A DNA stretch of 64,000 nucleotides from an uncultured bacterium (GTDB taxonomy: Bacteria; Armatimonadota; UBA5829): contig CALJES010000015.1 of NCBI GenBank assembly GCA_938074205.1, forward strand, positions 1 to 64,000, written 5' to 3'. A program made the position numbers and the translations under genes. The notes under the pieces were generated by a model that was given only the letters and a program-made list of their open reading frames with translations, searched no databases and was not told the DNA's origin. Below are positions 45,347-57,345 of the stretch, in pieces. Every line of letters begins with the position of its first letter. The first letter of the stretch is position 1.

Positions 45347-48300
45347 ATGGCTATTAGTAGAGTTAAGAGTACTAACGTAATCTTCGCAGTTGTAGTCATC
45401 CTTATCCTGGCTGTGCTGTTCTGGCCGATGAAGCAGACCAGGCCGGTGACGAAAGCCTCGGCTTCCACAACACCAGCTGAACAGAAACCAGCCTGTCCGG
45501 AGCCTTTAGCGAAGAGATACAAATCCATTGCAGCGTCGATAAACAGCGAACGGGTTAAAGCAGACGTTTACACTCTGTCTTCGTACCCGTCACGGTTGGT
45601 AGGATATCCCGGCTGCGAGAAGGCTGCTGAGTATATTGAAGACCAATTCCGTAAAATAGGCCTCGAAGAGGTGCGCAGCGAACCGTTCCGAGTGACGGTT
45701 CCCATTGACGAAGGTTCCCGTATTGTAATAGATGGCCAAAGCTTCCCGATTTATGCACTGTGGCCTAATCTGGTCAGGACATCTCACCTTCCGCCTGAGG
45801 GACTGGAGGTCCACGTAATTGATGCCGGCAGCGGTCGGCTGCCTGATTTTGACGGCAAGGCAGTCAAAGGTAGCGCAGCTCTTGTCGATTTTAACTCAGG
45901 CACAGAATGGTTGAATGCGCCCAGACTGGGAGCACGAGCACTACTTTTTGTCGAACCAGACACCACCATGCGCGGCGAGGGTGAGGCTAAGTTCAGCGCC
46001 ATCCCAGTTTCAATGCCGCGGTTCTGGGTCTCAAAGGAAACTGCTGCGAAGATAAGGGCTTTGATCGCTCAAGGAAGGGCGAATCGAGCGAGGATCTACT
46101 GTACAATGCCCTGGGAGAAAGTTAGGGCGCGCAATATCACAGGTATAATCCGCGGTACAGATCCTAAACTTCGCGATGAATGGATAGTTCTGCACGCTTA
46201 CTACGATGGCACCTCGGTTGTACCTGCCCTGGCGCCAAGCGCGGAGTCATCTTGTGGTATTGCCGCGCTTTTGGAGCTGGCTCGCTTATTTAAGCAGCCC
46301 CAGTTTGCCCCGAAACGATCCGTGATGTTCCTTGCAACTAGTGGACATTTCCAATCTTTGGCTGGAATGCGCGCCTTCATGGAGCGACATATAGATTCCT
46401 ATAGGCTGCCGGGGACGCTCGACCGCATCCACGAGTATCTGAACAGAAAATGGCCTGCCGACGGGCCAAAGGCGCTGCCATGGCCTCCAATCCTGCTCGC
46501 TATACTGTTGCTGCTCATAGTTTGGTGGATATGGACCAAGCTTAGATTTCTTAGAAGCCAGGTTCCTGCCATTGTGAGCGTTCCAATTGTCTTGGCAGCT
46601 TTGGTAATCTGGTACTGCTACAGCCTGACCGCCAGCTTTCTCAAGGGCTTTAATTATGAAATACCCAATCCTCCGCAATTCTATGTTTGGGCTGGTCTCG
46701 ATCTTTCTAGCCAAACGCAGGGAGTTGGCATTTTCTACAAGGGTTACTTCTACGACTATCGGGAAGATATCCAAGGAAAATTCTCCGATCTTGCCAGTCG
46801 TGCACGAGAAAACTCAGAACGAGTCGCAGCAACGTTGGGGTTCTTTGAGACCAGAGCTTCGAGGTTTGCTGATGGCGTAAACCCGATCACTGGCAAGAAC
46901 TGGCGCAACTTTGTGCCGGGTAAGTTTGCATTGGATAGCGAGGTGGTCACGCTAGCGGGTGGAATAGGCGTGTCATTTGTCTCTATTGATGATGGTAGGC
47001 CGCTCGTAGATACACCATTCGACAAGCCCCAGTACGTCAACTTCGCAAATCTGCACAAGCAACTCGTTATGATTGGTTGTCTGGTCGATCACTGGTTCCA
47101 TGACACCAGAACACCAATGGACGAAGAGATTATCCAGGCGACAGTTGTCGATCGAAAGACCATAAAACTTGCCGATCCGCTGCAGTTGGGATACGTGCAG
47201 GGTGTTTACACCGACGAAGTTGCTAGAGGTCGGAGCTATTATAAGCCGAAGTCCGAAAAAGAACTTCCCAAAATGCTTCCTGATGGGCGGATAACGCTCA
47301 CTGACGAATTGCCGCAAGGAGTTAGGATCGTATATGTCAGGCAAAAGCCTCTTACCAAACTTGGGGTTACTGAGCAGTGTAAGTTCACGCGAATGGGTCT
47401 GCAGGGTGGATTTGCGCGTCTTAGCGGGAATGTCGTGCAATACGACCCGCGTAGGAGTTTTGTTCCTAACCTCAAAGTTGGAGACTGCCTTGCTGTAGTG
47501 AGGAGCCCGCATAAGTCGTTCATGGGTGTGCGGGCTAACATCATAGACAAGACCACTCCCACCGAGGGATTTTTCTCCATTCCTGGAGTTGCCCCGCTGA
47601 CTGCGTACGGATGGCAAAGACTTACCTCGATAGGCGCGTACAAGCTGGATGCAGTGCGCGGAGACATTATCTGTGCTCCCGACCAGGGTTCGTACGGCCA
47701 GTTCTATCCGACAAGCTTCACCATAACCACGGGTTATAAGGACATGCCCATCATTGTGTTCGACTGCAAGGCAACGTCCGTTTACGACCTTGTTGATCCA
47801 CAGTCGCTTCGGGCGTTGACTGGGCTCTCAATGTACGAAGGGGATACTAACGGTGCGCCCAGGCAGTTTGGTTTCGCTGTTGCCGTTCCTGAACCACAGA
47901 ATCCTCATGTGGAGGATATGGCTGTCCTATTCACAGAGGATACGAAGAAGACCCAGGCACTGGCTACAGGAACGACCGCTGAGCTGAAGCGTATACGAAT
48001 AAAGGTCATAATGAGCGCCGGACCAGCCGCGAACCGACTGCTGCTGCTTAATTCAACTTTGGGCAATGAGATAATCCCGGCTGAAGTTGTCCCAGTTCAA
48101 GGTAGGGTCATAAACGATAGAGCTGTTCCTGTCGATTCTTCTTGGCAGGTCAAGGTCGAAGGCGCTTACTTGGACAAGGAGTGCACAGGAAAAAACTATT
48201 ACTTCCTTGGACCTGGCGAAGTTGACTACTCGGTAACAAGGGGTGTAATAGGGCTTTCCAGAGAGCTTCTCAACGAGTTGCCCAGAGGTAGGGAGACTAT

Positions 48301-51300
48301 ACACATAAGGACAAATCACGATACTGTTTTCCCCGCACGAATAGTCAAAGTTCTTACGCTCGACAAACCCTGGTATGAAACGATTCAGGGTGTGTATCTC
48401 GATGAACGGGCAACAGGGAAGAATTACCTGCGTCCTGCGCCTAACGCTCTCGTGGCTGGCTCGCTTAAGACCAGCCAGGTATGTGTTGCCAACGATTTTC
48501 CTACAAGGGAAGAAGTCTACCTCAAAGTAAGGAACGCTTTTGACGGCACGGTGCGCATTATCGAAGCCGGTATCGACGCAATAGATCTGAAAGCGGTAGT
48601 GTTGGGCGAGAATCCGCTTCAGGTTAGAGCGGAAGGCGTCTACTCAAATGCGAAGCTTATCGGTACCAACTATTACCGACCTTCTTCGCTGGAAGAAGGT
48701 ATAAGAGCCCTTGAAGAGGGGGGGCCGTTACTCACGGAGCGGTTCCCTGCAAATGCAGCTTCTCGCACCGTTTGGATTAAGACAAACCAGCCCAAGCCGA
48801 TCAAGGCAAACCTTGCTCGAAGCTTGGTAATTGATAGGCCGATTGAGGTTTTCGTCTCTGGAGTTTACATCGATCCGCAGTGTAAGGGACGCAACTTCCT
48901 CATAACCAAGTTCGGTACATCCTACAACAATGCGTCTCTGCTACGGGGTGAGATCCAACTTACAGACGAGCTACCCAAAGATACGAAGAGGGTCTACGTT
49001 AAACCCTTTGCTCAGCCGGAAGGGATCGGCTACGACGTCACCGAGGGCGGAACTATCGATGAAACTGCCTACAAGGTCGCCAGCGACATGTGGAAGTTGG
49101 ACGAGTATCGCCTGTCGGCGCTTGCTAGCAAAGGGGTCGTGAATGAAGGCCTTAACGCTTTGCATAGTACGGCCAAGTCGTATTTGGACCTAGCCGAGAA
49201 AGCGAAGGGCTCTCTCAACTACAGTGTTTTCGACTCCTACTGCCGTGCGGCTTGGGGCTATGAAGCCAGGGCATATCCTGATGTGACTTCTACCGCCCAA
49301 GACGTAGTGAACGGCGTCATATTCTATCTATTCTTAATGCTGCCGTTTGCATACTTTGCTGAGCGCTTGTTCTTCGCATTCCCTACACTGGGCAGACAGC
49401 TGCTTGCATTTTTTGGCATCTTCTTGGGTGTTTTCATAGTTTTCTATTTTGTGCACCCGGCCTTCCAAATAGTGGGGCAGGCCTCTTTGGTAATCCTTAT
49501 AGCATTCGTAATGTTGGCGCTCAGCTTGCTGGTCATTTCCATAGTGACGGGTAAGTTTGAGGATCAGCTCAAGCAGTTCAACCGCAGCGTGTCTGGTATA
49601 CACAAAGCTGATATTGGACGCATGAGCGTTGCAGCAGCAGCTTTCTCGCTCGGCATATCCAACATGCGGCGCCGAAAAGCGAGGACTGTCTTAACTTGTA
49701 TTACCCTTGTGCTACTCACATTTACTGTACTGTCGTTTACTTCGATAGTGTCAGTGCTTCGCTTCAACAAGGTACCTGCAAAGCGCGACCCAGATACATA
49801 TGTTTACGACGGGATAATGATTCGCACCGCAATGTGGGATCCGTTGCAAGAGATTGCCTACCGGCATCTTAAGGATGAATTCGGAAACAAGGGTCGCAGA
49901 GGTAAAGTCTACCCAGTTGCTCCTCGGGCTTGGTTCTTTGGAACTGTTCTTGGTGAACAATCCTTCCTGACACTGAGGCGCGGAGAGAAGTCCTACGATG
50001 CTAAGGCCGCCATGGGTATGGTTCCTGACGAGGCCGAGATCATGGATTTCGAAACTAATAACCGCAAGATATTCCTGGCTGGCGAGTGGTTCGGATATAA
50101 GAATGGCAAACGTGTGACTGATCGCGTCGATCCGTACTCCATTATCATTCCTGATACGATTGCAGAAAAACTTGGAATCAAGCCATCGGATGTCGGGAAA
50201 GCAAAAGTCGAGTTTGCCGGTGCCAAGTATACTGTAATCGCCATAATTAAGAACGACGTATTCAAGAGGATCAAGGATCTGGACAACGAACCACTTACCC
50301 CTGTCGATTTTATTCTGATGTCGAAACAGGGTCAGCAACAGCAGGCCGGTGCTGAAGCCGGCTTCAGAGAATATACTCACCACGAACCTGCTAACACATT
50401 CATTGTGCCTTTCGAGACCCTTATGAGTCTCGGCGGAGATTTGCGGTCAATAGCAATAAAATTCGCCACCTTCGAGGAGGTCCAGAGGCAGCTAGATTCC
50501 CTGATGCCCAGACTCGGACTGAATCTGTACGCTGGAGTCGGTGGGTATATCTACCGCTACAGTTCGATTGCTGCAAGTGCGAGCAAGGGCTTCTCGAATG
50601 TCTTTATCCCTGTTCTAATTGCTGCTTTGATAGTTCTTAACACAATGCTTGGTTCTGTGTATGAGCGTGTTAAGGAAATCGGTATATTTAGTGCCATCGG
50701 ACTTGCTCCGAACCATATTGCAATTCTGTTCATCGCGGAATCAATGGTCTATGCCAATCTCGGAGCCGTTGCTGGGTACGTCATCGGACAGGGCGTAAGC
50801 AAGTTGCTTATGGCGACAAACTGGTTGCCCGGACTTTATTTGAATTTCTCCTCAATGTCCGCGGTAACTAGTACGCTTATTGTTGTGGCCGTCGTGCTCC
50901 TCAGCACTCTCTATCCTGCAAGGAAAGCTTCGGAGGTAGCTACTCCTGCTGTTGATCGCACTTGGAAAGTGCCTGATCCCGTGGGAGATACTTGGGACAT
51001 AGTATTGCCGTTTGCCGTTACGGGCGAGCAGGCGCTAGGTGTTAATGTTTTCCTACGCGAGTGGTTCCAGGCTTACGAGGAGTACTCGATAGGCGACTTC
51101 GTAACGCAGGACGTTCGGACAACAACCTTCGATACCGACTATGGCAAGGCATACCAAATTTCTTGCAAGACTTGGCTTGCACCGTTTGATCTTGGTGTCA
51201 GTCAAACGGTCATTTTGCAAACTTTGCCCACATCTATGGAGGACGTGTTTGAGGTGAAAGTGCGCATAATACGCGAGAGCGGTGACATATCCAACTGGAA

Positions 51301-51439
51301 ACGGGTTAACAGAAGGTTCCTGAACACGCTTAGGAAACAGTTCCTAATTTGGCGAACACTTCGGCCGAGCGATCGAGAGAGGTATCTTAGTCAAGCACGC
51401 GCCGAGGAGGCTGGTGAAACAGCTCCTGCACCGGCGTAG
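45347..51439 (+). CDS. Giant fusion: inactive M28-like peptidase, unknown repeats and FtsX/MacB permease
   Basis: 2030 residues. After one membrane helix (13-27), residues ~60-365 resemble an M28 aminopeptidase with a PA-like insert. The catalytic positions look lost: LHAYYDG stands where AHYD is expected, SAESSCG replaces the DDN motif, and TSGHFQS replaces the Glu pair. Helices at ~379-425 are followed by a large exported part with five copies of a ~65-residue unit (starting near 601, 927, 1004, 1085 and 1161; pattern GVY-D-x4-GKNY, then LTDELP, then VYVK). Residues ~1320-1400 hold four helices, and 1435-1870 form an FtsX/MacB permease (MRRRKARTVLTCITLVLL; YERVKEIGIFSAIGLAPNHI). A ~160-residue C-terminal domain follows. 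It heads a six-gene block. Confidence 0.85.
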   Translation: MAISRVKSTNVIFAVVVILILAVLFWPMKQTRPVTKASASTTPAEQKPACPEPLAKRYKSIAASINSERVKADVYTLSSYPSRLVGYPGCEKAAEYIEDQFRKIGLEEVRSEPFRVTVPIDEGSRIVIDGQSFPIYALWPNLVRTSHLPPEGLEVHVIDAGSGRLPDFDGKAVKGSAALVDFNSGTEWLNAPRLGARALLFVEPDTTMRGEGEAKFSAIPVSMPRFWVSKETAAKIRALIAQGRANRARIYCTMPWEKVRARNITGIIRGTDPKLRDEWIVLHAYYDGTSVVPALAPSAESSCGIAALLELARLFKQPQFAPKRSVMFLATSGHFQSLAGMRAFMERHIDSYRLPGTLDRIHEYLNRKWPADGPKALPWPPILLAILLLLIVWWIWTKLRFLRSQVPAIVSVPIVLAALVIWYCYSLTASFLKGFNYEIPNPPQFYVWAGLDLSSQTQGVGIFYKGYFYDYREDIQGKFSDLASRARENSERVAATLGFFETRASRFADGVNPITGKNWRNFVPGKFALDSEVVTLAGGIGVSFVSIDDGRPLVDTPFDKPQYVNFANLHKQLVMIGCLVDHWFHDTRTPMDEEIIQATVVDRKTIKLADPLQLGYVQGVYTDEVARGRSYYKPKSEKELPKMLPDGRITLTDELPQGVRIVYVRQKPLTKLGVTEQCKFTRMGLQGGFARLSGNVVQYDPRRSFVPNLKVGDCLAVVRSPHKSFMGVRANIIDKTTPTEGFFSIPGVAPLTAYGWQRLTSIGAYKLDAVRGDIICAPDQGSYGQFYPTSFTITTGYKDMPIIVFDCKATSVYDLVDPQSLRALTGLSMYEGDTNGAPRQFGFAVAVPEPQNPHVEDMAVLFTEDTKKTQALATGTTAELKRIRIKVIMSAGPAANRLLLLNSTLGNEIIPAEVVPVQGRVINDRAVPVDSSWQVKVEGAYLDKECTGKNYYFLGPGEVDYSVTRGVIGLSRELLNELPRGRETIHIRTNHDTVFPARIVKVLTLDKPWYETIQGVYLDERATGKNYLRPAPNALVAGSLKTSQVCVANDFPTREEVYLKVRNAFDGTVRIIEAGIDAIDLKAVVLGENPLQVRAEGVYSNAKLIGTNYYRPSSLEEGIRALEEGGPLLTERFPANAASRTVWIKTNQPKPIKANLARSLVIDRPIEVFVSGVYIDPQCKGRNFLITKFGTSYNNASLLRGEIQLTDELPKDTKRVYVKPFAQPEGIGYDVTEGGTIDETAYKVASDMWKLDEYRLSALASKGVVNEGLNALHSTAKSYLDLAEKAKGSLNYSVFDSYCRAAWGYEARAYPDVTSTAQDVVNGVIFYLFLMLPFAYFAERLFFAFPTLGRQLLAFFGIFLGVFIVFYFVHPAFQIVGQASLVILIAFVMLALSLLVISIVTGKFEDQLKQFNRSVSGIHKADIGRMSVAAAAFSLGISNMRRRKARTVLTCITLVLLTFTVLSFTSIVSVLRFNKVPAKRDPDTYVYDGIMIRTAMWDPLQEIAYRHLKDEFGNKGRRGKVYPVAPRAWFFGTVLGEQSFLTLRRGEKSYDAKAAMGMVPDEAEIMDFETNNRKIFLAGEWFGYKNGKRVTDRVDPYSIIIPDTIAEKLGIKPSDVGKAKVEFAGAKYTVIAIIKNDVFKRIKDLDNEPLTPVDFILMSKQGQQQQAGAEAGFREYTHHEPANTFIVPFETLMSLGGDLRSIAIKFATFEEVQRQLDSLMPRLGLNLYAGVGGYIYRYSSIAASASKGFSNVFIPVLIAALIVLNTMLGSVYERVKEIGIFSAIGLAPNHIAILFIAESMVYANLGAVAGYVIGQGVSKLLMATNWLPGLYLNFSSMSAVTSTLIVVAVVLLSTLYPARKASEVATPAVDRTWKVPDPVGDTWDIVLPFAVTGEQALGVNVFLREWFQAYEEYSIGDFVTQDVRTTTFDTDYGKAYQISCKTWLAPFDLGVSQTVILQTLPTSMEDVFEVKVRIIRESGDISNWKRVNRRFLNTLRKQFLIWRTLRPSDRERYLSQARAEEAGETAPAPA

Positions 51440-51488: not shown

Positions 51489-53465
51489 TTGGCTGAAAGT
51501 CAAGATATTGTTCAAGCGAGAGAAGTTCTAGAGCAAGTATCTGGGGAAGACATAAAGCACCAAAAGTTCGAAGATGGGTTGACCCTGCGGACCGTAATCG
51601 GGTCTCTTTTCGTCGGGTTTATTATGATGCCCGGCGCAATGTATCTGGGTTTGGTCGCGGGGCAGGGGCTAGGTCCGGCGGCCGCCTGGGTTACGGTTGT
51701 GCTCTTCTCAGAAATCGCCCGCAGGTCATTCCAACCTCTCAAGAAGCAAGAGCTGTACATGCTTCTGTATATCGCGGGTGGTTTGGTCGGTGCGGCCAAC
51801 AGCGGGTTCCACGCGCTTATTTGGCACCAGTACTTAGTGCAGTGTCCTCAGATAGGGGAGCTGGCAAAAGAAATCCCCACGTGGATCGCTCCGCGAGCAA
51901 ACGACCCAGCGATTGTGCAGCGCACGTTCCTAAGCACGTCTTGGCTAGTGCCGATCATACTCATTGTTACCAACGAAATCCTCAGCAGAATGATCTGGAT
52001 CGGTGGTGGATATGCCCTCTTCCGAATCACTTCTGATCTCGAGCGGCTTCCATTCCCGTTCGCTCCGATCGCGGCCGCTGGTGCTACGGCGCTGGCCGAA
52101 GCGGGAACGAAAGAAGAGTCTTGGCGCTGGCAGGTCTTCTCGACAGGTTCGGTAGTGGGCTTACTGTTTGGGTTTATTTACGTCTTCATACCCATTGTTA
52201 CAGGTGTAATATTCGGTAAACCTGTTCAGCTTATACCAATACCGTTTATCGATTTCACGCCCAACACTGAAAATGTCCTTCCGGCGGCATGGTCTGCGTT
52301 GTCCGGAGACATAGGTGTAATGCTATGGGGCTTTGTGGTCCCGTGGCCAATCATTCTTGGATCCTTCATTAGCTCAACTATATGCGGGATATTCCTCAAT
52401 CCTATTCTTTACCACATGGGAATGTTCCCGCACTGGACATATGGGACTCCCTACCTTCAGACCCAGATGGCCACCACCATCGACTTCTGGCTTTCTGTTG
52501 CAATAGGGACAGCCCTCGGTATCGCAGTCATTGGTCTTGTAACTGTCGGAGTCGGCGCCGTCAGAGCGATGCGGGATGCGGATAGGCCGACCTTAAAGCG
52601 CACAATGCCCGAGGGTAGAGGCGACTGGAACATTTGGCTTTCCATTGGCGTTTTCTTCTTTGCAGTAATGATGCAAATTGTCATCACCCACACACTCGTT
52701 CCTGGATTTCCGGTCTGGATATTGCTGTTTTATGGGCTTATTTACACTCCGCTTATATCCTATACTTCTGCGCGTTTGGTTGGCCTTACTGGTAGGGGAA
52801 TTTCCTTCCCGTATTTGCGAGAGGCAACGATCATAAAAAGCGGGTATCGAAAGTCGGATATCTGGTTCGCAACTATTCCAATGATTGATGTGGGTGCTCA
52901 AGCCCAACACTTTAGGGAAATAGAGCTTACGGGTACCAAGTTCACGAGTATCGTCAAGGCGGAGATTTTGAAGCTTGTAGTTATTCTGCCAGCGAGCTTC
53001 GCGTTTTGGAGCTTTTTCTGGAAAACCAGTCCTATTCCATCAGCTCAGTATCCGTTCGTGCAAAAGATGTGGCCCGTCAATGCAACGATGGCGTCTATCT
53101 GGTGGACGGCAAACCGCAAGAGCATAACTGAGAACTGGCTCCTTTCAGCGCTTCGGCCTCCCGTAATCGTTGGAGCGGGTATAGGAACGCTGGTGCTTTA
53201 CGCGATTGCAAGCGTATTCAAGCTCCCGATAATGTTTTTCTATGGTTTTGTGAGCGGAATAGGCGCGGCTCCTATGGATCAGATTCCTATGTTCATTGGA
53301 GCTCTCTTAGGCAGATACTACTTCCGACGGCGGTTCGGGGCTGCTAAGTGGTCGCAGTATGCACCGGTGCTGATTGCCGGTTTTGGTTGTGGGACTGGTC
53401 TCACTGCTATGACTGGGGTTGCGGTGGCGTTGGTTACCAAATCTGTCAACTACCTTCCGTTCTGA
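51489..53465 (+). CDS. OPT-superfamily-like multi-pass membrane protein
   Basis: 658 residues from a TTG after GGGGCGGG, 49 bases downstream of the fusion gene. It has about 14 hydrophobic segments. The early GSLFVGFIMMPGAMYLGLVAG helix and the motif ERLPFPFAPIAAAGATALAE resemble oligopeptide-transporter (OPT) superfamily proteins of the uncharacterised DUF6785 kind. OPT proteins are proton-coupled importers of peptides or metal chelates; the substrate here is unknown. Linked to ABC-permease genes, it could supply or remove a product that the complex handles. Confidence 0.7.
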   Translation: MAESQDIVQAREVLEQVSGEDIKHQKFEDGLTLRTVIGSLFVGFIMMPGAMYLGLVAGQGLGPAAAWVTVVLFSEIARRSFQPLKKQELYMLLYIAGGLVGAANSGFHALIWHQYLVQCPQIGELAKEIPTWIAPRANDPAIVQRTFLSTSWLVPIILIVTNEILSRMIWIGGGYALFRITSDLERLPFPFAPIAAAGATALAEAGTKEESWRWQVFSTGSVVGLLFGFIYVFIPIVTGVIFGKPVQLIPIPFIDFTPNTENVLPAAWSALSGDIGVMLWGFVVPWPIILGSFISSTICGIFLNPILYHMGMFPHWTYGTPYLQTQMATTIDFWLSVAIGTALGIAVIGLVTVGVGAVRAMRDADRPTLKRTMPEGRGDWNIWLSIGVFFFAVMMQIVITHTLVPGFPVWILLFYGLIYTPLISYTSARLVGLTGRGISFPYLREATIIKSGYRKSDIWFATIPMIDVGAQAQHFREIELTGTKFTSIVKAEILKLVVILPASFAFWSFFWKTSPIPSAQYPFVQKMWPVNATMASIWWTANRKSITENWLLSALRPPVIVGAGIGTLVLYAIASVFKLPIMFFYGFVSGIGAAPMDQIPMFIGALLGRYYFRRRFGAAKWSQYAPVLIAGFGCGTGLTAMTGVAVALVTKSVNYLPF

Positions 53466-53544: not shown

Positions 53545-54486
53545 ATGAACGTCAGCAAAGCCGGATTATGTTTAAAAAAGGCTATGCGTGAGACCTGGAG
53601 CACAATTGCCTGGGAGGGCGTGACAGTCCGAGTACCGGCAGAGTGGAGTTTGGTCGGCGTAAGCGGAGATGCTCAGAAAGGTTATCTCCGAGTAGACAGC
53701 CCGGCGCAGTCTGTCTTGGAGATGAGGTGGTCGGCAGCATCAGGAAAACCGCCTGAGCTGTTAGCGAAAGGCCGGGAACTTCTGGCTAATCTAGATAAGA
53801 GCTGTCGGAAGCAGGGCACAAAGGTAACAAGCAAGATCAAGAACGAAGGAGATTCTGTAACCTTTTGGTGGAAGGCGGATCGCATCGGCGAAGGCAGATT
53901 GACCTACTGTCAAAAGTGCGACCGGGTGTTGATCGCACAGGTGATCTATCCGCCCGAGGAGGATTTGTCTGATACCGCTCAGAGCATTCTTAGGTCGATG
54001 CGCGATCATCGAAGCGACAACCTTATCGCCTGGGCACTTTACGGTTTTGAATTCGCGGTTCCAGCTAGTTACGTTCTCGACAGACACACTTTGATGTCTG
54101 GATATATCAAGTTAGCGTTTAAAAATCGTGCGAAGCAGTTGGTCGTCGAGCGGTGGGGGCTGGCAAATACAATTGTGGCCGACTATTCGCTAATGGATTG
54201 GTACCGAAAAGACGTTCTTCCTGACGTGAAAGGGTTCAGAACCGACTTTGAGCAAATAGATATTTCAGGTCATCCTGGACTGCGGGTTTGGGGACAAGCA
54301 GCGGGCATCAGACAGGCGGTCAAGTCTGTGGCATACTCACTCACTCTATACACCAATCCCAGATTTCTTACGGGATATGCTTGGCATTGCACGGAGAGCA
54401 ACAGGCTTTACAGTGTGAGAGCCACTCACGACAAAGGTGAAAATATCGCGGAACGCGTGCGCGACTTGATACGATGTCATAAATAG
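53545..54486 (+). CDS. Unknown protein with two similar halves
   Basis: 313 residues, no signal peptide or membrane helix. The two halves look related: TIAWEGVTVRVPAEWSLVG, then GYLRVD and LEMRWSA in the first, and LIAWALYGFEFAVPASYVLD, then GYIKLAF and LVVERWGL in the second. The first half ends with a Cys pair (YCQKCD). This suggests an internal duplication of a ~150-residue beta-rich domain. I do not recognise a named family. It is followed after 2 bases by the PqqD-like gene, so the two are translated together. Confidence 0.8.
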   Translation: MNVSKAGLCLKKAMRETWSTIAWEGVTVRVPAEWSLVGVSGDAQKGYLRVDSPAQSVLEMRWSAASGKPPELLAKGRELLANLDKSCRKQGTKVTSKIKNEGDSVTFWWKADRIGEGRLTYCQKCDRVLIAQVIYPPEEDLSDTAQSILRSMRDHRSDNLIAWALYGFEFAVPASYVLDRHTLMSGYIKLAFKNRAKQLVVERWGLANTIVADYSLMDWYRKDVLPDVKGFRTDFEQIDISGHPGLRVWGQAAGIRQAVKSVAYSLTLYTNPRFLTGYAWHCTESNRLYSVRATHDKGENIAERVRDLIRCHK

Positions 54487-54488
54487 AA

Positions 54489-54917
54489 ATGAGCCGACTG
54501 AGTAACTCGATATCAAGATTCATCCCCTTTTTGGGAGCCAAGCCTAAGATAGACCGCAAGCAGGCGCTTGCAGTTGTGCCAGTGCGCAACCCTCTGATAG
54601 AGTGGGAGCGTCGTGGTAAGGAGATCCACCTGAGTATACCTATGCGCGACGATTGCGTGGCGCGCTTAGTAAAGCGCTTTCTGCGCAACGTGCCGGAAAG
54701 GCGTCGTGTGGCTCTGGATGAGGTTGGCGCTGCAGTTTGGGAGCTGTGCAATGGAGAGCGAAGCATAAACTCGATTGTTGAGTCCATATCGAGAAGCTAC
54801 AAGTTGACCCGTAGAGAAGCGGAAGCGTCAGTTACGATGTTCCTTCAAACCCTTGCTAAACGTAACTATATAGGCCTCATGTCCTTAGGAGGTAGCAAAG
54901 GTGCCAAACGAAAGTAG
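54489..54917 (+). CDS. PqqD-like protein
   Basis: 142 residues. The C-terminal ~90 residues match the PqqD fold: RRRVALDEVGAAVWELCNGE, then SINSIVESISRSYKL and AEASVTMFLQTLAKRNYIGL. PqqD domains bind precursor peptides as RiPP recognition elements, but many stand-alone copies have no known peptide, and no radical-SAM enzyme or peptide gene is visible here. It starts 2 bases after the duplicated protein and overlaps the permease by 17 bases. It may be an adaptor in the ABC complex. Confidence 0.75.
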   Translation: MSRLSNSISRFIPFLGAKPKIDRKQALAVVPVRNPLIEWERRGKEIHLSIPMRDDCVARLVKRFLRNVPERRRVALDEVGAAVWELCNGERSINSIVESISRSYKLTRREAEASVTMFLQTLAKRNYIGLMSLGGSKGAKRK

Positions 54918-56532
54918 TAAGGCAGCGATCGGTCGTCAGACCCAACTGCCATTCAAGCGCGCTCTTGAAATCAGTCTCAAGAGCTTAAAGATAAGGTTCT
55001 GGCGTTCAATGATAACGGCCGCTGGCATTTTCTTGGGAATCGCGTTCCTGACTGTCGTACTAACACAGTCCCTGTTGCAATGGCCGATTCCTGAGAGAGT
55101 TGACGCAGGATTTGTTAGGGTTAGCGGACAGGTCAATGGGCCTGGCGACTATGACGTGTGGACCCCTGCGTCGATTGATGAGGGTCTTAAAGCAGGTATT
55201 CCAAAAGAAGTTCTGGAGCGAGTTGCCGTCGATGGCAAGTTCAACCTAAGAGATATAGTTCAGGGTGCAATAAACGCTGAGCGTGCTGAGAAGAAACTCA
55301 AGCGTTTGGAGCAAGAGTGGCGCGACCTCTCCAAGATCAAGGACGACCTGGCTTTCTACGTAAGTGTCGCCTCAGACGCGGATATAAGAATTCGAGAAGC
55401 GTTGAAACGCGGGGTGCCAAAGTTCACTGCGCGCAACCTAGCAATAGTGGCAGACGTGAGGAAGGACCTGGAAAGAATGCTGGAAGAAGAAGGGCCAAGT
55501 TCAGATAGCAAGGAAGTTCGCGCGCTCAAGGCGGAACTCGATTTCTACATGGCAGCTGCTGCCGATCCAAGGGTAAAACTTTCGGACGCGGTGAAATACG
55601 GTGTTCCAGAGGGAAAAAAGCGCAGAACTCCTGGTGAGAAGGCGACCTTCAAGGGCAGTGATCTGGCTGAAATTATCAGGCAGCAACCGGAGTGGGTTAA
55701 TACACTCTTCGCGAGCGCTGCGTTGGACCAGGACGTCACTATTAAAGACGCTATCAGGCAAGGCGTCCCTGAAACAGTAGCGAAAAGGTTGGCAGGGCAG
55801 GGAAATACTTTCAAGCCCAGCGCGCTCAATGACTTGATCAAGACGTACCCGGATCAGGTAAAGAAGTGGAAGCGCAGAGCAGAGCGCAACTCGATATTCA
55901 AGGCTGTTTCCAAATCAGCTGTTGCTGTAATTGCTCGTTCTCATGCAAGAACTCTGAACGATGTGCTGGCTGACGCGAAACAGTTGGCGAAAGAGGCCGA
56001 CCGTACGAACGTGATGATTGTCAACAAAGACCGAAAGATAAAAGTTGATTTCTCGCGTTACGGGCAGGATGCTGGCAATGTCAAACTTGTTGACGGCGAC
56101 AACATCTATGTCCCAGATCGCAATGCGCGCTATCGGATGATATGGTTGGTGGTTATGTCCTTATTAGTTTGCACAGTTGGTATAACAAACAGTATGCTTA
56201 TGTCGGTAACCGAGCGTTTCAAGGAAATCGGCACAATGAAATGCTTGGGGGCTTTGGATAAGTTTGTAGTTGAGCTGTTTATGCTGGAGTCTGGGATGAT
56301 GGGCGGCGCTGCATCAATTCTGGGCTGGCTGACCGGTTTCATTCTTATGGTTATCGTTGCCGTGTCAACCACCGGTTGGGATGTTATCCGCAATTTGGAA
56401 GCGAAGGCCGTTCTGCTGACGTTTATCGAGGCAGTAGTCATTGGCATGCTTTTGACTATTATTGCGACGATAGCACCTGCCAAGCGAGCGGCGGATATGC
56501 CGCCTGCTATGGCTTTACGGTCTGAGATATAA
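54901..56532 (+). CDS. FtsX-type permease with GVP repeats and an SLBB-like domain
   Basis: 543 residues from a GTG preceded by AGGAGG. The first helix (MITAAGIFLGIAFLTVVL) and the C-terminal FtsX part (SMLMSVTERFKEIGTMKCLG, then helices to ~535, ending ALRSEI) are standard. Between them lies an unusual exported domain. It holds four short repeats of the form D-x-x-I-x-x-A-x-x-x-GVP (near 91, 159, 222 and 277), a charged coiled-coil-like stretch (~120-150), and residues ~349-405 that look like an SLBB beta-grasp (LNDVLADAKQLAKEADRTNV ending VDGDNIYVPDRN). SLBB domains usually occur in polysaccharide export proteins, not in FtsX permeases. Confidence 0.85.
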   Translation: MPNESSKAAIGRQTQLPFKRALEISLKSLKIRFWRSMITAAGIFLGIAFLTVVLTQSLLQWPIPERVDAGFVRVSGQVNGPGDYDVWTPASIDEGLKAGIPKEVLERVAVDGKFNLRDIVQGAINAERAEKKLKRLEQEWRDLSKIKDDLAFYVSVASDADIRIREALKRGVPKFTARNLAIVADVRKDLERMLEEEGPSSDSKEVRALKAELDFYMAAAADPRVKLSDAVKYGVPEGKKRRTPGEKATFKGSDLAEIIRQQPEWVNTLFASAALDQDVTIKDAIRQGVPETVAKRLAGQGNTFKPSALNDLIKTYPDQVKKWKRRAERNSIFKAVSKSAVAVIARSHARTLNDVLADAKQLAKEADRTNVMIVNKDRKIKVDFSRYGQDAGNVKLVDGDNIYVPDRNARYRMIWLVVMSLLVCTVGITNSMLMSVTERFKEIGTMKCLGALDKFVVELFMLESGMMGGAASILGWLTGFILMVIVAVSTTGWDVIRNLEAKAVLLTFIEAVVIGMLLTIIATIAPAKRAADMPPAMALRSEI

Positions 56533-56598: not shown

Positions 56599-57345
56599 AT
56601 GGCGAACGAAAAGCGTGAATACGTGGTGCGGTGTAAAGACCTATACAAAGAGTTCGTGATGGGAGATACGGTTCTGCAAGCGCTAAAGGGCATCCAGCTT
56701 GATATTTATAGAGGAGAGTACGTATCTATTATGGGTCCGTCTGGTTCTGGCAAGTCAACACTGTTTAACATGGTCGGAGGTCTGGACAAGCCCACCTCCG
56801 GCACGGTGTTCATTAACGATGTGGATATGGCTCAATTGGATGCCCAAGAACTTGCCTACCTGAGATGCCGCACCATAGGCTATATATTCCAGACGTTCAA
56901 CTTGATCCCAGTAATGACGGCCCTCGAAAACGTCGTCTTGCCTATGATTTTCGCAGGAGTTCCGCAAGATGAAGCTGTGGAGCGTGGTATTGAGTTACTG
57001 AAGATAGTTGGTCTGGGCGATCGACTGCATCACAAGCCGACCGAATTATCGGGTGGTCAGCAGCAGCGAGTTGCGTGCGCTCGGGCTCTTGCGAATAATC
57101 CTGCAATAATACTCGCCGATGAGCCGACTGGAAACCTTGATCTTAAGACGGGGAAGGAGATCATTGAACTCCTGCGCAGGCTCAATAAAGAGCAGGGCGT
57201 GACGGTCATTTCGGCAACGCACGATCTCAAAATGATCGATATCTCTGATCGCATCGTCTGGATACGCGACGGCCAGATAGAACGGATCGAGAACAGAGAA
57301 GATATCGAGCTTAAGGTTGGTTCTGTAGAGCACGAAGAAGAATGA
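56599..57345 (+). CDS. ABC transporter ATPase, LolD/MacB type
   Basis: 248 residues. Walker A GPSGSGKST begins at residue 46, the Q-loop is in FQTFNLIPVMTALENV, the signature is LSGGQQQRVACARAL, Walker B is IILADEPTGNLD and the H-loop is SATHDLK. This is the LolD/FtsE/MacB class that powers FtsX-type permeases. GAGAGGTG precedes the ATG. As the only ATPase in the block, it would serve both the 2030-residue and the 543-residue permease, giving a LolCDE-like asymmetric complex. Confidence 0.95.
   Translation: MANEKREYVVRCKDLYKEFVMGDTVLQALKGIQLDIYRGEYVSIMGPSGSGKSTLFNMVGGLDKPTSGTVFINDVDMAQLDAQELAYLRCRTIGYIFQTFNLIPVMTALENVVLPMIFAGVPQDEAVERGIELLKIVGLGDRLHHKPTELSGGQQQRVACARALANNPAIILADEPTGNLDLKTGKEIIELLRRLNKEQGVTVISATHDLKMIDISDRIVWIRDGQIERIENREDIELKVGSVEHEEE

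Follow-up and report, generated by a model that had tools for sequence, protein, structure and literature searches.

A permease of the FtsX/MacB type, encoded by an uncultured bacterium of the Armatimonadota, carries a genuine Wza-type SLBB beta-grasp domain between its first and second transmembrane helices (TM1 and TM2), and this domain is split into two halves, residues 67–89 and approximately 349–408. The gene (54901..56532; 543 aa, GTG start, intact ORF) lies in the window, that is, the whole stretch of 64,000 nucleotides that was analysed, which comes from a genome of 3.0 Mb in 19 contigs; all its features given below are on the + strand. The initial annotation was aware of no SLBB domain in an FtsX permease, and none in an FtsX/MacB-type permease was found to have been reported in the open-licence literature. 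The same literature gave no report of FtsX in Armatimonadetes or of an Armatimonadota ABC transporter with PqqD.

The permease core and its split SLBB domain

The membrane core places the protein among the type VII ABC permeases. Pfam detects the FtsX C-terminal domain (PF02687, E 2.8e-15) at residues 416–535, within a core of TM2 to TM4 (aa 409–543, 56125..56529) whose fold matches those of MacB, LolCE and YbbP. In the AlphaFold2 model the chain begins with an N-terminal helix followed by TM1 (aa 18–58, 54952..55074; helices 18–31 and 33–58), and TM1 aligns to that of short orthologues. Comparison of the modelled TM core by VIA gave Z 18.6 against MacB (rmsd 2.6, 180 aligned), 16.9 against LolE and 16.5 against YbbP, the MacB match spanning about 180 residues, which is the size of the core. 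When the model was searched against the PDB with Foldseek, type VII permeases ranked first and Wza chains after them. Two marks of a type VII half-permease are present: a four-TM FtsX core with a C-terminal FtsX domain, and a partner ATPase of LolD/MacB type encoded by the adjacent gene. We are moderately confident that this protein contributes one half-permease to a heterodimeric ABC complex of type VII (MacB/LolCDE/YbbAP-like), and the ATP-driven mechanotransmission complex proposed at the outset fits this family membership and the LolD-like neighbour, as far as sequence can indicate.

The SLBB domain had at first been placed at residues ~349–405. That stretch does belong to it, but the first hairpin, residues 67–89, had been missed. 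Searched with an SLBB profile, as had been suggested as a check, residues 350–404 matched SLBB_2 (PF22461) with 16.2 bits (E 0.011), below the curated cut-off of 27, and the match takes in profile positions 22–79 only. The absent positions, 1–21, correspond to residues 67–89 (VDAGFVRVSGQVNGPGDYDVWTP; 55099..55167), the beta1–beta2 hairpin. With these residues joined to 348–412 the match improved from 16.0 bits (E 0.013) to 25.6 bits (E 1.3e-5), covering positions 3–79 of 79 and still lying under the cut-off of 27. Joined halves of the orthologue L006 rose from 20.0 to 29.7 bits, above it, while those of L007 and L009 rose from 15.0 to 18.7 and from 21.6 to 23.2 bits, respectively. The second half (aa 349–408, 55945..56124) supplies the helix, beta3, beta4, a connector helix and beta5.

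The hairpin was also picked out by a control segment scan. Its HMM was built without any FtsX-type SLBB, from 13 SLBB domains that the Pfam family search had identified in five genomes, this one included. Each stretch of 23 residues in the loop was attached in turn to the C-terminal half and scored. In the window protein residues 67–89 were the best of 272 segments; they reached 37.0 bits, and the highest of 500 shuffles 29.4. The scan took in seven of the eight known carriers in the window's family (f1), leaving out G006 (L010), and in all seven the hairpin ranked first and scored above every shuffle: L039 at 32.3 (shuffle maximum 21.7), L040 at 33.0 (26.0), L041 at 16.8 (11.2), L042 at 18.7 (14.5), L043 at 32.2 (27.5) and L044 at 14.9 (13.2).

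The predicted structure agrees. The AlphaFold2 model, built on 20 aligned sequences of which nine bear the insert, has a mean pLDDT of 86.3 overall; between residues 71 and 410 the means by block range from 79 to 96. It shows the SLBB elements in order: strands 71–76 and 82–85, helix 352–358, strands 371–375 and 378–382, connector helix 384–392 and a last strand at 401–404. Foldseek matched it to Wza chains of the PDB across about 60 columns (probability 1.00), and VIA to Wza 7xfd with Z 11.9 and 1.8 A over 77 residues (27% identity); since these 77 aligned residues span 70–407 of the model, both halves are predicted to form one beta-grasp domain. Other VIA matches of the SLBB region were the class-3 OPX protein WzaB (Z 10.7), GfcC (10.5) and ComEA (8.1). 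The solved Wza structures and the predicted fold thus bear out the beta-grasp first suspected at ~349–405, and three results, the Pfam score of the joined halves, the segment scan and the match in fold, rule out a chance likeness of that segment to SLBB.

Two outcomes had been named beforehand as speaking against an SLBB domain, a fold other than beta-grasp and a MacB-type periplasmic domain, and neither was found. The latter is ruled out for the TM1–TM2 loop, which folds as SLBB plus helices, and Pfam gave no match to the MacB periplasmic-domain family anywhere in the permease at E <=1. Like MacB, LolCDE, YbbAP and FtsEX, the window's system has a LolD-like ATPase and a four-TM FtsX core whose TM1–TM2 loop carries an additional domain; unlike them, it has an SLBB with a helical stalk as its outside domain, not one of Porter/Sabre type.

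The helical insert and its GIP/GVP repeats

Some 260 helical residues (aa 90–348, 55168..55944) lie between the SLBB halves and break the domain between beta2 and its helix. They comprise two long helices, 116–144 and 306–335, and short repeats, and when modelled alone gave a pLDDT of 92.9. The model suggests that the two long helices probably form a paired stalk. No known fold for the insert was found by Foldseek at E <=0.001, and the VIA matches were for the most part to coiled coils and helical bundles (the best with Z 7.9 and 6.7 A), which by the tool's own notes may reflect mere arrangement and are not evidence of a new fold.

Four repeats of the form D-x-x-I-x-x-A-x-x-x-GVP had been described as preceding the SLBB domain. 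The motifs are real, but two of the four fit that pattern exactly and the others loosely, and they lie inside the domain, between its halves. The first ends in GIP (aa 90–101, 55168..55203) and the other three in GVP (aa 161–173, 55381..55419; aa 224–236, 55570..55608; aa 278–290, 55732..55770), so that they terminate at residues 101, 173, 236 and 290. The best internal self-alignment scored 93, and the highest value among 300 shuffles was 59. Motif 1 comes directly after beta2, in the place expected of the SLBB helix, and the final repeat unit continues into the SLBB helix at 352–358; from the sequence we infer that the insert grew by tandem duplication around that helix. By a simple pattern, two motifs are counted in L043 and L044 and five or more in L041 and L042, and proteins of the window's family range from 427 to 628 aa.

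Distribution and conserved gene neighbourhood

The small permease is widespread in the phylum, being present in 189 of 291 genomes (E <=1e-24), and most other Armatimonadota orthologues have a short linker from TM1 to TM2 (14 to 53 residues in the other readable orthologues, by a rough cut). Within the window's order the gene occurs in 10 of 19 genomes (E <=1e-20), with 8 of 15 in family f1, both genomes of f3 and neither of the two in f2. A search for the same architecture in other genomes, which had been called for, found an insert in all 10 of these carriers. In family f3 (L012 and L013) the loop holds two uninterrupted SLBB domains, apparently with two extra TM helices between them, and here the SLBB models pass the curated Pfam cut-offs with the whole protein (49.2 and 62.4 bits). 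Among the matches listed, open frames of at least 400 aa belong to the 10 carriers and to G246 and G249, whose matches run unbroken across the loop region. Among the genomes searched, the SLBB architecture is restricted to the window's order.

On a tree of the permease core the SLBB distribution calls for two changes, and a single SLBB clade is not rejected (p-AU 0.248, tested on 59 of 81 rows after long-branch rows and near-copies were dropped). Two permeases from records titled Coriobacteriia and Actinomycetota (L049 and L079) are placed among those of Armatimonadota, a position explained either by mislabelled bins or by gene transfer. An unrelated insert of about 180 residues was seen in the same TM1–TM2 loop in another Armatimonadota lineage (L106:1846-2976 and L118:2668-3798).

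It could be supposed that SLBB and stalk are a drifting and functionally dispensable loop insertion, given how widely repeat number and protein length vary within the window's family and that the L106 and L118 lineage has filled the same loop with something else. We regard this as very improbable. The insertion is retained by every carrier in the order, and the comparison with L039, which is 90% identical, points the other way: the hairpin shows no replacement and 16 silent differences, the second SLBB half 4.5 and 30.5, and the insert 47.2 and 140.8. Across the permease there are 65.2 replacement and 288.8 silent differences, the silent changes being near saturation and the replacements few. 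Judged by these differences, the TM1–TM2 loop is under purifying selection throughout.

The permease gene stands in a conserved operon. Directly downstream is the gene for a LolD/MacB-like ABC ATPase (56599..57345, 248 aa; PF00005, E 4.2e-34; NCBIfam LolD 2e-71, below the equivalog cut-off). Upstream is a PqqD-family protein (54489..54917, 142 aa; PF05402, E 4.8e-13), the end of whose gene overlaps the permease start by 17 bases (54901–54917), an overlap that suggests coupled translation of the two. Further upstream are a W-rich orphan protein, g313 (53545..54486, 313 aa), and a polytopic protein of 658 aa, OPT658 (51489..53465), which we take to be OPT-like. Both are conserved neighbours; neither has a Pfam or NCBIfam family over cut-off, and profile searches of PDB sequences gave no match for either. 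The set is completed by a giant FtsX protein of 2030 aa (45347..51439; PF02687, 4.2e-15) with a degenerate M28-peptidase-like domain (PF04389, 8.1e-08).

In the contig scan of relatives, which covered the best 80 of 285, neighbours were counted at loci with sufficient flank. The ATPase follows the permease at 74 of 78 loci and PqqD precedes it at 48 of 71, while g313 lies nearby at 41 of 64, the polytopic protein at 31 of 52 and the giant FtsX at 26 of 46; all five occur together at 29 of the 80 loci. Some of the loci without PqqD have the giant FtsX and polytopic genes downstream instead. Loci without PqqD are mostly those of Poribacteria, which mostly have the small permease and ATPase only; this suggests that the small permease can perhaps work without the giant FtsX.

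At the positions that we presume to be its metal-ligand sites, the M28-like domain of the giant protein reads YYD, AES and GHFQ, and the orthologues L047, L092, L098 and L114 read as the window does. It is probably a pseudo-peptidase, to judge by these residues. The giant protein also has four repeats of VxGVYxDxxxxGxNY type (aa 617, 937, 1013 and 1170), a pattern matched only in L039 (four) and L043 (one) of the 11 readable orthologues.

Candidate mechanism and ligand

We infer the pairing of the small permease with the giant FtsX from gene order, by which the latter is likely to be the second half of the permease dimer. A homodimer of the small permease, as in FtsX and MacB, is possible. Heterodimers (LolCE) and one-domain asymmetry (BceB) are both described among type VII systems, and the asymmetry of BceB resembles an ancestral half-permease without an outside domain (PMC5985334). 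In the heterodimer that we prefer, the giant M28-like FtsX would provide the other permease half and the adjacent LolD-like protein the ATPase. The ancestral half-permease would have been nearly devoid of an outside loop; a Wza-type SLBB beta-grasp would have been gained between TM1 and TM2 in the window's order, and in the window's family it would then have been broken between beta2 and the helix by a stalk grown through repeat duplication. In type VII systems ATP binding is described as closing the TM stalk and shifting the outside domains (PMC12646458, PMC5985334). In such a mechanotransmission cycle, ATP-driven motion of TM1 and TM2 would carry SLBB and stalk along, and the SLBB domain could serve as a driven periplasmic arm that binds or docks a ligand or partner protein. 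Taken whole, this explanation, a type VII heterodimer half-permease with an acquired, ATP-driven SLBB arm, seems to us reasonably probable.

As to what such an arm might hold, the initial annotation pointed to polysaccharide handling, and a complex whose SLBB grips a periplasmic polysaccharide, pulling on the polymer or freeing it, would be in keeping with the closest solved folds, which are those of two polysaccharide exporters, Wza and WzaB, and of GfcC, a capsule protein, and with the reported cross-linking of polymer to the proximal SLBB of Wza (PMC9603273). The genomic surroundings do not bear this out: none of the 10 flanking genes scanned at three sister loci (beside L042, L043 and L046) is a gene of polysaccharide synthesis or export, the nearest candidate being a GH94 enzyme beside L043, and SLBB_2 matches per family genome do not track the gene (2–13 with it and 4–15 without it, no visible association). 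The glycine motif is also eroded in the window's family. The sGG motif described for the Nqo1-like/Wza SLBB clade by Burroughs et al. (PMC1796856) is replaced near the SLBB helix by ADAKQL; GG is retained in three of the four SLBB domains of L045 and L046. Since the motif is eroded, ligand binding by the SLBB of the window's family may have been lost, and we consider a polysaccharide grip doubtful. Other ligands have precedent, as the transcobalamin SLBB binds cobalamin and a range of soluble ligands is predicted for further SLBB domains (PMC1796856).

An eroded ligand motif is consistent with a contact role, in which the SLBB would dock on a Wza-like exporter, at its SLBB rings, or on the giant FtsX, by protein–protein contact and not through a ligand site. 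The genome does encode SLBB-repeat proteins of OPX kind (10 SLBB_2 matches in three open frames). Against docking, the number of SLBB matches does not follow the presence of the gene; we hold it to be unlikely, if slightly less so than the grip on polysaccharide.

Wza/OPX exporters share the SLBB fold, and the NCBIfam polysaccharide-export model reaches orthologue L046 at 1.1e-8, below its cut-off; in contrast to these exporters, the window's protein is an inner-membrane permease into which the SLBB has been inserted in two halves, and the Poly_export domain that marks OPX proteins is absent from it by Pfam. ComEA and SLBB-bearing ComEC likewise tie SLBB to inner-membrane transport. In ComEC-type proteins SLBB is described as a rare extra domain (PMC6299819), but these are not ABC permeases and the portion of that source cited here mentions no stalk split. 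In transcobalamin a beta-grasp of the SLBB superfamily works with a helical domain, but it belongs to another SLBB clade, with a beta-hairpin insert after the helix and an alpha/alpha toroid, and has no permease (PMC1796856).

The farthest-reaching reading would make this a new class among type VII ABC machines: a half-permease ancestrally without a loop would have taken an ATP-driven arm from the polysaccharide-export toolkit and, with a degenerate-peptidase FtsX as partner, would handle or gate an envelope polymer or its exporter; this is speculative and, at present, improbable. Descriptions of type VII ABC systems usually feature one common kind of periplasmic domain. The permease of the window demonstrates that the TM1–TM2 loop is able to take an unrelated fold that is familiar from ligand-binding proteins, and that this fold can in turn enclose a helical stalk. 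Orthologues with a short loop, a double SLBB and a split SLBB occur in the same operon, and they offer a natural experiment on the role of the outside domain.
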